Below, piece after piece: positions 1,282 to 9,632 of a stretch of DNA of 13,059 bases. The stretch's first letter is position 1; each line of letters starts with the position of its first letter. The stretch comes from an uncultured Limosilactobacillus sp. (GTDB taxonomy: Bacteria; Bacillota; Bacilli; Lactobacillales; Lactobacillaceae): the NCBI GenBank assembly GCA_944326735.1, contig CALVFC010000028.1, positions 1 through 13,059 on the forward strand, written 5' to 3'. A program made the translations under genes and the position numbers. The notes under the pieces were generated by a model. It saw only the letters and a list, made by a program, of their open reading frames with translations. It was not told where the DNA came from and ran no database searches.

Positions 1282-2433
1282 ATGGATAAGGATAAACAGA
1301 TTGCTATTTTGTCAAAGCTGATTTCAATTAAGTCAGTCAATGATAATGAGGCAGAAGTAGCCGACTATATCGAGTCATTATTCAAGCCGTACGAAAAGCA
1401 GGGTGTTCAGATTGACCGTGTTCAATACGCCCCTGGCCGTGATAATCTGGTGATCACCATTGGCTCTGGTGATAAGATGCTGGGCTTCTCTGGTCACGAA
1501 GACGTGGTCTCTGAAGGGGATGCCAGTCAGTGGTCGTCTGATCCATTCAAGGCCACAATCAAGGATGGTAAGCTCTATGGCCGTGGTGCCGCAGATATGA
1601 AGAGTGGCCTAGCAGCATTAATTATTGCGATGCTGGATATGTTAGATAACCACAACGTTCCAGGGAAGATCCGGTTATTGTGCACCGTTGGGGAAGAAAC
1701 CGGTGAATACGGTGCTGCCCAACTAACTAAGGAAGGGTACGCCGATGGACTTGGTGGTTTAATTATTGCTGAACCAGGTAACAGTATGTCCGAAATTGGC
1801 TACACCTCTAAAGGAGTAATTGACTATATTGTCACTTCTATTGGTAAGCAGGCCCACAGTTCACAACCTCAAAATGGGATTAACGCCATTGACCACTTGG
1901 TTGACTTTGCAACCCAGGTTAAGCCGCTGATGGCCAAGTTTGATAAAGTTAACCCGATTTTGGGTAAACTAACCCACGTTCAATCCGTCTTCCAAGGTGG
2001 GTCACAGATTAACTCCGTACCAGCTAAGGCAATTATTAAAGGCAACATTCGGACCATTCCTGAATATCCAAACCAGGTTGTCTTTGATGCACTGAACAAG
2101 TTAGTAGCGGACCTTAATCAAAAGCCTGGTTACGACCTTAGTATTCGTTACAGCTTCCCAGAAGAAGCGATGCCGGGTGATAAGGATGCACCACTGATTA
2201 AGTTGATGGAAAAGGTTCACGATGAAATCTTTGATGGTCCAGTAAAGGCCATTGGTCAATCAGGCGCGTCTGATGGTTCCGAATTCTTACATGGCAAGGG
2301 TGACTTTGCGATCGCTGAAATTGGACCTGGTAACAACACTCAACACCAGACAGACGAAAATGTCGAAGTGGATGTTTTCCATAAGTCAGTTGAATTTTAC
2401 AAACAAGTAGCCAAAGAATTTTTTGCTGACTGA
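1282..2433 (+). CDS. M20-family zinc amidohydrolase (ArgE/DapE-type deacylase)
   Basis: This 383-residue cytoplasmic enzyme belongs to peptidase family M20, whose members cleave N-acyl amino acids, succinyl-diaminopimelate or small peptides with two bound zinc ions. Metal and catalytic motifs are present: GHEDVV (H72, D74), GRGAADMKSG (D105), EET (general base around E138/E139), IAEPG (E164) and QHQTDE near the end (H355). Residues of about 180-290 form the usual dimerisation insert. The ATG at 1282 is preferred because GGAGGGG at 1269-1275 precedes it. A longer in-frame start at 1168 would place the promoter inside the gene. The stop is 11 bases before the carrier gene, so the two are almost certainly cotranscribed, and the enzyme may process what the carrier imports. 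ArgE, DapE and dipeptidase activities cannot be separated here. A role in lysine synthesis is unlikely without other dap genes nearby. Confidence 0.85.
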   Translation: MDKDKQIAILSKLISIKSVNDNEAEVADYIESLFKPYEKQGVQIDRVQYAPGRDNLVITIGSGDKMLGFSGHEDVVSEGDASQWSSDPFKATIKDGKLYGRGAADMKSGLAALIIAMLDMLDNHNVPGKIRLLCTVGEETGEYGAAQLTKEGYADGLGGLIIAEPGNSMSEIGYTSKGVIDYIVTSIGKQAHSSQPQNGINAIDHLVDFATQVKPLMAKFDKVNPILGKLTHVQSVFQGGSQINSVPAKAIIKGNIRTIPEYPNQVVFDALNKLVADLNQKPGYDLSIRYSFPEEAMPGDKDAPLIKLMEKVHDEIFDGPVKAIGQSGASDGSEFLHGKGDFAIAEIGPGNNTQHQTDENVEVDVFHKSVEFYKQVAKEFFAD

Positions 2434-2444
2434 GGTGACTGCGG

Positions 2445-3959
2445 ATGGAGAATCAAACAAAACCAAAACATAAATTTCATATGCCGTCAGCGTTTACCAT
2501 CCTGTTTATACTGATTGTGCTGATTGCCGTTTTGACGTGGATTGTCCCTGCCGGTGAATATAAAGTCGATTCTGCCGGTAATATGATTTCTGGGACCTAC
2601 CATACGGTTGCTGCTCATCCCCAAGGTATCTGGGACGTCTTCATGGCCCCAGTAATTGGGATGATTGGTAACAAGGCCACGACGGGTGCGATTGACATTG
2701 CCCTCTTCATTCTGGTCATTGGTGGTTTCTTGGGAGTCGTCAATAAGACTGGCGCCCTGGATGACGGGATTCGGTCCATCGTTACCAATTCCAAGGGACA
2801 CGAAAAACGGTTAATCGTTATTTTGACCATCATCTTTGCCATTGGTGGTTCTACCTACGGGATGGGTGAAGAAACCTTAGCCTTCTTCCCGCTAATTGTG
2901 CCGATCATGATGGGGGTTGGTTACGACTCTCTGGTAGCAGCCGGTATCATTTTGCTGGGAACTCGTGTAGGGGACTTAGCATCAACGGTTAACCCATTCT
3001 CCACAGGGGTTGCCTCAGGAATCATTAAAATTTCTCCCGGATCTGGCTTGGGGTCACGGATTATCTTATTGGTCATCGTGACTGCTTTGACAATTGCTTT
3101 TGTCATTCACTATGCCGACAAGATCAAGAAAGACCCAACCAAGTCATTAGTTTATAAACAACGGAAGGCTGATATGAAGTTCTTCGAAGTGGAAGAACGG
3201 AGTAGTAAGCCGAGCCCGTTGACTAAGGTGCAGAAGCACGTCTTATGGGTATTCGCCCTGACATTCATTATCATGATCGTCGGGCTCGTGCCATGGACCA
3301 GCATTAACAAGTCATGGACATTCTTTGATACCTTCACTAAGTGGTTAACCAGCGTCCCATTCCTTGGTAACTTCTTGGGTGCCGACATGACGGCGCTGGG
3401 AAGCTGGTACTTCAATGAAATTACGATGCTCTTCCTGTTCATGTCGGTCGTTATTATGTTCGTTGGTCACATTAAAGAAGCGGACTTTATCGATTCATTT
3501 ATGAAAGGGATGGGTGAATTACTGAACGTTGCGATTATCGTTGCGGTTGCCCGGGGAATTCAGGTTGTCATGAACAACGGTAAGATTACCGGGACCATCC
3601 TCCACTGGGGTGAATTATCACTCGGTGGAATGCCAAAAGCGGCGTTCATCATTTTAGCCTTTATTTTCTTTATCATCTTGTCATTCCTGATTCCATCTAG
3701 TTCCGGATTAGCGGCGGCAACAATGGGGATCATGGGCTCGTTAGCTCATTTTGCCCATGTTGACGGCAGTGTTCTGGTTACTTCTTACCAGGCCGCAACG
3801 GGGTTGATTACGGCGGTAACACCAACAGCGGGGATGTTAGTGGGGGCTTTGGCCCTGTCTCGGATCCCAATTACCATTTATTGGAAGTGGGTTTACAAGT
3901 TTATCCTGTTGCTGTTCTTGGTTACCTGTGTATATTTGGCGGTGTTGACAATAATGTAG
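2445..3959 (+). CDS. YfcC-family membrane carrier (DcuC/ion transporter superfamily)
   Basis: This 504-residue polytopic membrane protein resembles the YfcC branch of the DcuC family (Pfam 03606), secondary carriers linked to C4-dicarboxylates, amino acids or peptides. Hydrophobic segments begin at about residue 14. Two re-entrant-loop signatures are visible: TVNPFSTGVASG at about 181-192 and PSSSGLAAATMG at about 416-427. GEETLAFFPL lies at 141-150. A long polar cytoplasmic loop (about 223-264) separates the halves. GAGGTGA, which overlaps the upstream stop, is the ribosome site. It is the second gene of an operon with an M20 amidohydrolase, a pairing that suggests uptake of an acyl-amino acid or dipeptide. 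The actual substrate is unknown. There is no clear terminator directly behind it; the structured repeat block begins 5 bases after the stop. Confidence 0.87.
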   Translation: MENQTKPKHKFHMPSAFTILFILIVLIAVLTWIVPAGEYKVDSAGNMISGTYHTVAAHPQGIWDVFMAPVIGMIGNKATTGAIDIALFILVIGGFLGVVNKTGALDDGIRSIVTNSKGHEKRLIVILTIIFAIGGSTYGMGEETLAFFPLIVPIMMGVGYDSLVAAGIILLGTRVGDLASTVNPFSTGVASGIIKISPGSGLGSRIILLVIVTALTIAFVIHYADKIKKDPTKSLVYKQRKADMKFFEVEERSSKPSPLTKVQKHVLWVFALTFIIMIVGLVPWTSINKSWTFFDTFTKWLTSVPFLGNFLGADMTALGSWYFNEITMLFLFMSVVIMFVGHIKEADFIDSFMKGMGELLNVAIIVAVARGIQVVMNNGKITGTILHWGELSLGGMPKAAFIILAFIFFIILSFLIPSSSGLAAATMGIMGSLAHFAHVDGSVLVTSYQAATGLITAVTPTAGMLVGALALSRIPITIYWKWVYKFILLLFLVTCVYLAVLTIM

Positions 3960-3963
3960 ATGT

Positions 3964-4240
3964 AGAGTGCGAGCCGTGACGGATTAGCAACTGAGCACTA
4001 ATGAATCCCGGACGATGATTGTGGTAGCAATCAAGTCCGGGATAATTATGCGGAGGTTGCGGTCACGGCGAGCACGTTTTGACTCGGTTGCAGTAGAATT
4101 GGCGACTTGTCGTCGGAGGAGGAGTGCGTTAGCTCGAGAGAGTTTAGGGCGAGCACGTTTCGACTCAGCTGCAGTAAAAGTAGAGGCGAGCACATTTCGA
4201 CTCAGTAGCAGTAGGACTTAGCTACTGCCCACGTTTCACC
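3964..4240 (+). repeat. Structured modular repeat block 1 (plus orientation)
   Basis: Three related units follow the carrier gene. Right boxes lie at 4068-4097, 4149-4178 and 4186-4214, with consensus GCGAGCACRTTTYGACTC followed by CRGYWGCAGTA. The first unit starts with a left box AGAGTGCGAG (3964-3973) and encloses nested inverted repeats: 3973-3980 with 4062-4069, 3987-3991 with 4056-4060, 4005-4013 with 4035-4043, and 4016-4021 with 4028-4033, all perfect. The second unit has GAGTGCG at 4122-4128 and only about 20 bases before its right box. The third lacks a left box and is followed by the hairpin GCAGTAG/CTACTGC. A weak CACGTTTCAC echo occurs near 4230. The same family occurs inverted at 9271-9581. 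Open frames on both strands here are by-products of the repeat. Confidence 0.85.
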
Positions 4241-4271
4241 GCACTTACATTGGAAAATTAGATAAACATTA

Positions 4272-4318
4272 AGAGCTCTAGTACTCGGAAAAGATCCGAG
4301 CACTAGGGCTCTCTTTGT
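4272..4318 (+). terminator. Hairpin terminator candidate beyond repeat block 1
   Basis: A 17-position stem (4272-4288 with 4296-4312, one mismatch and one G-U pair) and a 7-base loop are followed by a modest T-containing tail, CTTTGTGC. It lies about 310 bases after the carrier stop and ahead of the next gene. It could end a long 3' untranslated region that contains the repeats. The weak T run lowers confidence. Confidence 0.5.
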
Positions 4319-8325: not shown

Positions 8326-9240
8326 ATGTCACGAAAAATGAAAGGAGTCTTATTAGCAGCTGGTGGGGCTTCTTTATGGGGTGGCTCGGGAGCTGCTGCC
8401 CAGTACCTGTTTTCTCGGACGGATATTAACACTAATTGGCTTGCAGCCATGCGGCTTTTGCTGGCTGGCGCACTGTTATTACTATGGAGTGCTTACAAGG
8501 CTCCCCAGCAGGTAAGAGCATTGGCCACTAATAAGAAAAATATTTTCTATTTAGTTATGTTTGCCGTTTTTGGAATGCTAAACTCACAGATTTCTTATTT
8601 TTTGGCGGTTAAATATAGTAATGCGCCGACCGCAACGGTGATTCAATACCTGCAACCCGTCATTATTATTATCTGGTTAGCTATTGCGGAACGACATTGG
8701 CCGAGTCGACTAGATAACATTTCAGTCGTCGTTGCGTTAATTGGAACGTTTTACCTCGTTACCGGCGGTCATTTGAACACTTTGACATTAACTCCCCGTG
8801 CTATCCTTTGGGGTGTTTGGTGTGCCGTGGCCGCGGCTCTTTACACGCTGTTACCCCGACCGTTGCTGGAACGGTTCGATGCCCTTGCTGTGTGTGGCTT
8901 TGCTATGTTATTAGCGGGAATTTGTATTATTCCAGAATTGTTCATTCATCCAGTACCACACTTAAACTTGTTAGGGTGGTTGCTGATTGTCTACATTATT
9001 GTCGGTGGAACAATGTTCTCTTATACAATGTTCCTTCAGAGTATGCGGTACATTTCACCAGCTGTAACCGGAATCCTGTCAGCGTTTGAACCATTAGTGG
9101 CTACGTTGCTGGCAGTGACGTTGCTAGGAACCCGACTCACCGTGGCCGCGGTCTTTGGCTCAGTATTGATCCTGTTGACCACAGTTATTCAGGCAATCCC
9201 CATGGACCGAATTCCAGGATTACGACACTTTAGTAAATAG
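8326..9240 (+). CDS. EamA-family transporter (drug/metabolite transporter superfamily)
   Basis: This 304-residue membrane protein belongs to the drug/metabolite transporter superfamily, ten-helix carriers that mostly export amino acids, metabolites or toxic compounds. Two EamA repeats are visible: residues of about 7-143, ending in the NAPTATVIQYLQPV helix and the following pair, and about 157-290, containing the matching SPAVTGILSAFEPL motif. The length is standard. AAAGGA at about 8312-8317 lies 8 bases before the ATG. The gene is monocistronic, with a terminator 4 bases after its stop. A full-consensus CcpA site lies about 125 bases upstream, which suggests carbon-source control. The substrate cannot be predicted. 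Confidence 0.85.
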   Translation: MSRKMKGVLLAAGGASLWGGSGAAAQYLFSRTDINTNWLAAMRLLLAGALLLLWSAYKAPQQVRALATNKKNIFYLVMFAVFGMLNSQISYFLAVKYSNAPTATVIQYLQPVIIIIWLAIAERHWPSRLDNISVVVALIGTFYLVTGGHLNTLTLTPRAILWGVWCAVAAALYTLLPRPLLERFDALAVCGFAMLLAGICIIPELFIHPVPHLNLLGWLLIVYIIVGGTMFSYTMFLQSMRYISPAVTGILSAFEPLVATLLAVTLLGTRLTVAAVFGSVLILLTTVIQAIPMDRIPGLRHFSK

Positions 9241-9244
9241 GAAG

Positions 9245-9268
9245 AGGACGGCGTGATCCGTCCTTTTT
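9245..9268 (+). terminator. Terminator after EamA gene
   Basis: A perfect 7-pair stem (AGGACGG with CCGTCCT) and a 6-base loop are followed by a run of T to 9268. Confidence 0.85.
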
Positions 9269-9270
9269 CG

Positions 9271-9581
9271 GTTGCAATTGAGTTGAAACGTGGTTGGCTG
9301 AAGTTCTTCTACTGCGACTGAGTCAAAACGTGAGCAGTAGCTGATTGGACATTCACACCGATGAATCGGGTGTGACTATCCTAATCAGCCTTGCGGGGGC
9401 TCACAAACGAAAACAAGTTTTCTGGTTCGCTCCCTCGCCCTAAGCTGTTCTAATGCAACCGAGTCGAAATGTGCTCGGCCTAAGCCCTTAGTGTCTAGTT
9501 ACGTAAGGATCCTTGATGCGCTTCGCACCTCAAGCACCTTACTAGACTAGCCATACAGGGCTTTTAACGGCCTCGCACTCT
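9271..9581 (-). repeat. Structured modular repeat block 2 (minus orientation)
   Basis: The repeat family of 3964-4240 recurs here inverted. The left box AGAGTGCGAGG is the complement of 9571-9581. Right boxes (complement) lie at 9451-9478, 9310-9333 and, degenerate, 9271-9293. Between 9477 and 9572 the insert has nested pairings: 9477-9480 with 9569-9572, 9482-9487 with 9558-9563, 9493-9497 with 9543-9547, 9503-9508 with 9537-9542, 9512-9516 with 9530-9534, and 9517-9520 with 9524-9527. A second insert nests 9340-9349 with 9379-9389 around 9353-9359 with 9369-9375. A third imperfect hairpin with GAAAAC/GTTTTC at its tip spans about 9393-9438. CTACTGC (9309-9315) pairs with GCAGTAG (9334-9340). 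Confidence 0.85.
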
Positions 9582-9632
9582 AGTAAACCTTTTACTAAAC
9601 AAATCTTTCCATATTTTTTTGCTCACTTTTGT

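Follow-up and report, generated by a model that had tools for sequence, protein, structure and literature searches.

Stop-codon-anchored, structure-conserved repeats with changing inserts in Limosilactobacillus and related genomes

REPs are short palindromes with RAYT partners. In E. coli, those that lie no more than 15 nt from a stop codon are reported to stall ribosomes and to lower translation (Liang, Rudd and Deutscher 2015, as cited in PMC12306157). The elements presented here resemble the E. coli REPs, as far as that text describes them, in being hairpin repeats behind genes with high copy number. They differ from REPs in consisting of about 107 nt of nested helices plus a tail, in residing at the stop codon, often with their own TAG, and in their changing inserts. 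With regard to REP/REPIN-RAYT systems, our copies do lie at gene 3' ends, but their 107-nt nested structure is not a short palindrome, and five of the eight copy-rich genomes (at least nine matches) have no Y1 match.

Pneumococcal BOX elements, as described in PMC3049150, have a constant boxA and boxC around a variable boxB, are folded, and are thought to be parasitic. Our elements share with them the constant ends, the variable middle and the folding, a likeness drawn from the description of BOX. However, BOX as described there varies by the number of boxB units, whereas our elements have a single middle of near-constant length, compensated sequence change and placement at stop codons. Integron attC sites likewise have conserved ends, a variable interior and a hairpin that is selected on one strand; our elements are similar in all of these respects, but no gene cassettes were seen between copies. 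Truncated copies with an intact 3' end are also reminiscent of remnants derived from group II introns or of SINE-like remnants, and the left end GUGYG resembles the start of group II introns. However, the scanned loci gave no Rfam intron-domain match, and six of the eight copy-rich genomes have no RVT_1. With respect to a MITE of a DDE insertion sequence, comparison by eye of the left end AGAGTGCGAG with the reverse complement of the right end TTCTACTGCA revealed no terminal inverted repeat; TAG/AGA, seen near both ends of many copies, is at most a candidate target-site duplication.

The elements are of a known kind, namely structured interspersed bacterial repeats; what is new is the stop-codon anchoring and the proposed layered overwriting and codon reshaping. 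No description of these repeats in lactobacilli was found in the open-licence papers searched. PMC2267715 lists three stem-loop clusters in Lactobacillus johnsonii.

The window, which is the whole stretch of 13,059 nt that was analyzed from a contig of an uncultured Limosilactobacillus sp., contains two full elements. Element A (3960 to 4098, plus strand; insert type T3) has a left box AGAGTGCGAG at 3964-3973, nested helices and a right tail at 4069-4098. Element B (9448 to 9585, minus strand; T5-like insert) has its left box at 9581-9572 and its right tail at 9477-9448. The general architecture is a nested hairpin of about 107 nt, from GAGTG to GCAC, followed by a tail of about 25 nt that ends GCAGTAGAA. 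Our covariance model, R1, was built from 23 full copies whose loci were fetched by a tail pattern and a DNA search; it matches A with 93.6 bits and B with 92.5 bits, and both are among the 23 sequences used to build it.

A preliminary description of this DNA had claimed that the two units have common ends around interiors without obvious similarity, and both observations hold. A and B have the same left box GAGTGCGAG, and 27 of the 30 positions of the right tail (CGAGCAC..TAGAA) are identical between them. When the interiors (95 and 94 nt) are aligned, the score is 24 (shuffled mean 19.2, standard deviation 7.0), and 250 of 1000 shuffles score as well, so that their similarity is at chance level. 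The right box has four window matches at up to three mismatches (0.00 expected). The 8-nt left box alone is weaker evidence, with two window matches compared with 0.17 expected, and as many in 6 of 200 shuffles. When folded as RNA, both units are far more stable on the element strand than their shuffles (z of -7.76 for A and -4.25 for B), and both fold better on this strand than on the opposite one. Nested folding, as earlier claimed, is thus borne out, but the arms are only partly the perfect ones described: internal loops, which recur in other copies and include a symmetric GA/GA loop beside the boxes, separate the helices.

Element A follows a DcuC-family transporter gene (an ORF at 2445-3959, plus strand; Pfam PF03606, E 1.4e-116) with a TAG stop at 3957-3959, and its left box starts 4 nt behind this stop. 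The source of the window is close to L. frumenti: a genome scan with a tail pattern gave a single hit, in L. frumenti DSM 13145, and window positions 2401-3957 are 88.6% identical there. Behind A is an array of 5'-truncated copies at 4101-4216, with a trace to roughly 4257, all on the plus strand. The first (4101-4179; R1 match at 4119-4179) is of another type, T2, and keeps its right tail; window positions 4101-4221 are 88.6% identical to a T2 element behind ychF in L. frumenti (L001). The next (4180-4216) is essentially a right tail only, with a box match at 4187-4210 at one mismatch, and belongs to direct repeat D1. Finally, a decayed right-tail trace at 4229-4257 forms inverted repeat I6 with 9265-9293 (76% complementary).

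Element B is flanked by an EamA gene and an MFS gene and does not sit at a gene stop; the ORF context of the window revealed no minus-strand gene ahead of it. Behind it, from 9434 to 9265 on the minus strand, are a module and more tails. The T6 module (9332-9434; two hairpins by eye) lies within an element tail as a nested second repeat, and cuts the right tail of a second copy (9307-9332; inverted repeat I5). A decayed right-tail trace (9265-9293; inverted repeat I6) lies near a terminator-like hairpin, seen by eye, behind the EamA gene. Positions 9307-9439 of the window are 94.7% identical to a locus of genome G001 (L004). The T6 second repeat (GGAGYGAACCAGAAA ... CAGCTACTGC) is lodged, in both orientations, in tails or hairpins belonging to the first family, as a repeat within a repeat; further sites are L255:3454, L223:16630, L238 (minus strand, 13841) and L015. 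By eye, separate terminator-like hairpins come after the element arrays of the window, at about 4271-4316 (plus strand) and at 9239-9259.

Among 50 Limosilactobacillus genomes, R1 has matches in 14 and none in 36. With at most 66 candidates scored per genome, the per-genome counts are lower bounds, and six genomes have 20 or more matches: at least 21 in G001, 54 in G002, 20 in G010, 28 in G013, 66 in G043 and 65 in G049. Elsewhere in the genus, G024 has at least 17 and G022 at least 9. In the family, 30 of 121 sampled genomes match at an E value of 1e-5, G001 and G002 among them. The tail is still CACGTTTCG in six of eight loci taken from other genomes, and the inserts are again different there. 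An Rfam covariance search (window elements, 11 and 10 loci) gave no match near a gathering score; the best was mir-1784 on a long hairpin of L282, whose 33.7 bits fall short of the gathering score, 98. A plasmid search with unit B gave no match, and viral contigs contained no exact match of the one tail pattern used. A strict pattern, which recovered only 23 ordinary copies in 1.2 Mb, detected no long version carrying a gene between its two ends; the same search returned one pair of ends at 194 nt.

Selection on the fold, one of the possibilities raised in the preliminary description, is strongly supported by compensatory changes, the boxes included. In the 23 sequences, 83.5% of cells are paired, compared with 67.7% after shuffling and 34-44% with one strand slid. 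We also aligned 124 distinct rows from all 126 R1 matches (copies and fragments, short ones included). In this alignment, which was fitted to the R1 model and therefore leans toward it, 90.7% of cells are paired compared with 72.0% after shuffling and 34-47% overall in the slid-strand controls, and double-changed cells number 842 compared with 249. Double changes occur in 36 of 40 pairs, and one box pair itself covaries: of 123 rows, 65 have CG and 45 have UA at this pair. These data show that the fold is under selection while the interior sequence changes into several types.

Of the 124 rows, 99 have the left-hand GA and 107 the right-hand GA of the GA/GA loop that separates the box helix from the next helix. 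Since this mismatch is kept in about four fifths of the rows, the arms are not simply being made perfect. Evolution driven by the palindrome alone, which had also been suggested, leaves both the kept mismatch and the stop-codon placement described below unexplained. At 32 well-paired positions without a common G-U pair, 101 cells are G-U and 44 are A-C. This excess points to RNA of the sense strand, as supporting and not decisive evidence, since the model tolerates G-U.

Most copies are sense-oriented at a stop codon, and the element's own TAG often serves as the stop. In these counts, genes were called with a simple script and not taken from annotation. A hit-selected set used 116 of the 126 R1 matches (10 short or weak ones omitted), of which 108 are at least 125 nt long and 106 are distinct. 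Of these 106 full copies, 91 are directly preceded by a same-strand gene, and for 78 of the 91 the stop of this gene falls between -13 and +3 nt relative to the start of the model; in 36 of the 78, the stop is at the distance of the element's own TAG. A second count covered 1.2 Mb of contiguous sequence from three genomes and used 66 of 77 matches, the 11 others being weak or short. Here, 46 of 66 copies are sense-oriented at a same-strand stop (26 at own-TAG distance), 12 face the start of an opposite gene, 7 are further off, and 1 has no neighbor; none of the 66 is inside a called gene. By comparison, 3451 of 325,948 noncoding strand positions (about 1%) lie within 3 nt behind a sense stop. 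Element B belongs to the copies away from a same-strand stop. Outside the genus set, 33 of 52 hit-selected copies from ten genomes are at a stop (52 of 54 used, two duplicates dropped), including all 11 in G155, and 12 of the 33 are at own-TAG distance, with TAG in 11 cases and TAA in one. In G010, only 7 of 21 loci are near a stop. Counterselection against insertion into genes would leave copies free to lie anywhere between genes; placement this sharp therefore calls for either targeting to stop codons or a function there.

Insert exchange can be followed at orthologous sites. Among 331 ortholog pairs from three genomes, 10 pairs (8 different genes) have a full copy on both sides, and the insert types, read by eye, differ in 9 of these 10. 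In 10 more pairs, with 9 different partner genes, a full copy is opposite a site recognized by two patterns as having none, and 5 pairs are full and partial. Identical orthologous inserts or freely lost pairing, named in the preliminary description as contrary to its reading, were looked for and not found. At ychF, one element has its hairpin deleted between the boxes, and only a tail-like remnant is left of another (L193 in G013 and L196 in G024), which amounts to a natural loss series.

Many copies form layered arrays. Unit orders in the 1.2 Mb (F, full; t, truncated) are F 27, Ft 25, Ftt 2, FF 2, t 8, tt 3 and ttt 1, so that 12 arrays hold truncated units only. In all 27 mixed arrays, the full copy is on the stop side (binomial p 1.5e-8 if arrays are independent), and its next neighbor is of another type in 26 of the 27, with T1 and T1b counted as one. 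Typing covered the 104 tails for which the sequence upstream could be aligned to one of seven consensuses at a score of at least 9, and T5 assignments of truncated units rest on few bases. The left junction is constant and the right one variable. The 46 truncated units keep the right tail and have lost the left part, and 31 of them begin within the 3' arm, between consensus positions 70 and 89. A full copy on the stop side with 5'-truncated copies behind it is expected if a newcomer, arriving on the stop side, replaces the 5' half of an old copy. One copy, L238, is a chimera, with a T7 5' half and a T4 3' half joined at the shared ATTTCTCC. Of the cassette exchange envisaged in the preliminary description, swapping of interiors is supported, but cassettes do not seem to enter between standing boxes, in that a whole copy lies beside the stop with truncated ones behind it.

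The ends of genes that bear an element have an unusual composition. In 75 bearing genes, third-position C rises from about 0.2 to 0.53 between -165 and -30, with G down to 0.10; in the last 15 nt this flips to C 0.07 and G 0.35. No such course of third-position C and G is seen in 142 other genes. Arginine codons in the last 15 nt are AGA or AGG in 26 of 30 cases in bearing genes and in 12 of 41 in other genes (p 2e-6). Orthologs were compared at 30 loci per gene (29 parsed for ychF) of 48 to 50 matching genomes, with p values that ignore genome relatedness. For ychF, 4 bearing genes have a mean C count of 1.25 in the last 24 nt, compared with 4.92 in 25 genes without an element. All 4 bearing genomes have AGG and TAG. 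Of the 25 others, 24 have CGN together with TAA or TGA, and only G013 departs from this, with AGG and the remnant of the hairpin-deleted element. For trpS (6 bearing, 24 not), C in the last 24 nt is 1.5 compared with 5.29 (p 6e-4), upstream third-position C is 8.5 compared with 3.92 (p 0.004), and TAG is the stop in 6 of 6 compared with 3 of 24; G is no different (p 0.98). Usp, with 3 bearing and 27 other genes, has no significant shift (p 0.86 for C, 0.055 for G and 0.10 for upstream C).

In ten pairs of bearing and non-bearing orthologs, two of which share a partner, the last 24 nt contain 8.0 compared with 5.0 G (p 0.004) and 1.9 compared with 3.7 C (p 0.045), and upstream C is 7.2 compared with 3.3 (p 0.03). 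The non-bearing partners resemble ordinary genes, so these ten pairs suggest that the G-rich, C-poor collar follows the element and does not attract it. Outside the genus set, a C-poor, G-rich gene end is seen again, in data without a control gene set, but the C-rich zone of Limosilactobacillus (-75 to -30) is not.

Pairing of gene ends with the anti-SD sequence peaks for 9-mers starting 20 to 16 nt before the stop in 101 bearing genes, compared with 200 genes sampled from 470 others, and the best site reaches -6 kcal/mol or lower in 56 of the 101, and in 37% after shuffling. A peak of this kind would fit ribosomes being held before the stop. In the genomes outside the genus set, however, pairing is strongest at about -24. 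This shift between lineages makes the idea of a ribosome register weak, and with G-rich composition giving much of the signal, we keep an SD register of the terminating ribosome only as a lead.

Other candidate explanations of the collar were rejected. It pairs slightly more weakly with its own element than with other elements (-15.3 compared with -16.0 kcal/mol; p 0.014) and no better with its own tail than with others (p 0.86). Pairing with the C-rich zone is weakly above shuffles (p 0.018), but not above pairing with the zones of other genes (p 0.18). Codon choice for less structure does not apply: the last 60 nt fold at -10.6 compared with -9.3 for synonymous random versions, and are less structured in only 31 of 75 genes. 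Translational bypass of the element is unsupported, the ychF protein ending at the same residue with and without it. A Rho/rut interpretation of the upstream C-rich stretch is rejected, with PF07497 in none of the 50 genomes; in control genomes it matched 9 of 14.

We lean toward the hypothesis of a non-autonomous interspersed repeat, selected for its structure, whose copies arrive at stop codons, overwrite the copy already present and function within the mRNA as a stop-proximal REP would; we think this somewhat probable, with its movement and function inferred from the patterns above. Entry would take place at the stop codon, with another element as the template, and the newcomer would overwrite the 5' half of the resident. 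Element RNA would then be made as the start of the gene's 3' UTR, where its strong hairpin would adjoin the terminating ribosome and might slow termination or guard the mRNA 3' end, as stop-proximal E. coli REPs reportedly do. The last codons of the host gene would adapt to the element by becoming C-poor and often G-rich. A bolder version, which we offer as speculation, is a mobile element with RNA structure that inserts in a manner coupled to the termination of translation: the terminating ribosome, or a cut at the stop, would mark the site, arrivals would overwrite the resident's 5' half, and synonymous codons would be reshaped, in Limosilactobacillus up to about 150 nt upstream.

If the repeat targets stop codons or is kept there with its own TAG, it would be a parasite with a novel means of persisting in compact genomes without destroying genes, and a stop-targeting repeat would link repeat evolution to translation termination. 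Fixed ends and a fixed fold with free sequence provide a natural, large-scale record of compensatory evolution, and the codon changes are a ready test of stop-proximal structures acting on ribosomes in Gram-positives in which no Rho was found.

The strongest alternative, which we regard as possible but doubtful, requires no dedicated enzyme. Hairpins would stall replication or be cut, and the broken gene end would copy another element through short homology in the left box, by template switch or gene conversion, swapping inserts and leaving right-hand remains. The L238 chimera joined at a shared motif, the constant left and variable right junctions, neighbors mostly of other type, and exchange at orthologous sites all agree with this, as does the result that no enzyme tracks the elements among the two families tested (Y1 transposase and reverse transcriptase). 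However, a first arrival at a stop without homology and the choice of stops are unexplained, and an orthologous site in G001 (L252) has no visible trace beside copies in G049 and G043. Copying by template switch or gene conversion would best account for exchange and layering, though it leaves the first arrival unaccounted for.

The elements could instead be immobile regulatory elements of host 3' UTRs, inherited vertically and changed by sequence drift only. Orthologous genes do share copies across species (ychF in 4 genomes, trpS in 6), and fold and codon context are kept. But the differing types in 9 of 10 shared pairs, the 10 further pairs with a copy recognized on one side only and the 36 of 50 genus genomes without a match make this account improbable.

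We also consider unlikely a SINE-like retroelement, in which target-primed reverse transcription of RNA copies leaves intact right ends and truncated left ends. The 46 right-tailed truncated units have this form, and the fold is that of RNA. However, RVT_1 (PF00078) is absent from six of the eight copy-rich genomes (G002, G010, G013, G022, G024 and G043), and truncated units are always behind a full one in mixed arrays (27 of 27), which argues for overwritten old copies and not incomplete new ones.

Still less probable is the movement of a REP/REPIN-like DNA element by a Y1 transposase, of the RAYT or IS200/IS605 type, that acts on single-stranded hairpin ends. The repeat is a hairpin without terminal inverted repeats at gene 3' ends, TAG is seen near both ends of many copies, and Y1_Tnp (PF01797) is present in G013, G022 (with stops in frame) and G024. 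The preliminary description had advised looking for a transposase or RAYT-like gene whose presence tracks copy number, and such a link is not supported: Y1_Tnp is absent from G001, G002, G010, G043 and G049, allowing that genomes may be incomplete, and is abundant in G014, G034 and G035, where R1 found no copy. Both enzyme families are absent from G002 (at least 54 matches), G010 (at least 20) and G043 (at least 66). Movement may have ended. Polar truncated arrays and stop-codon placement are unexplained by such a transposase. Ordinary intrinsic terminators, suggested by strong hairpins directly behind genes, are very improbable, in that the alignment has no T run after the hairpin but the tail CACGTTTYGACTC.., several arrays have, by eye, a separate terminator-like hairpin behind them (as at about 4271-4316 in the window), and 60 of 106 copies lie between genes of one direction.

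Some additional observations concern individual genomes and loci. Genomes G034, G035, G037, G038 and G031 have 11 to 31 reverse-transcriptase matches, many in frames of 473-477 aa, together with one or no element match. Two elements are arranged tail to tail in L134, L048, L168, L189, L010 and L145, and abut directly in L010. Finally, a G010 variant (loci L050, L063 and L113-L131) represents a parallel family that has other box letters (TAGTATGCGA and GGAGCATCATTAC) and the same GA/GA loop.
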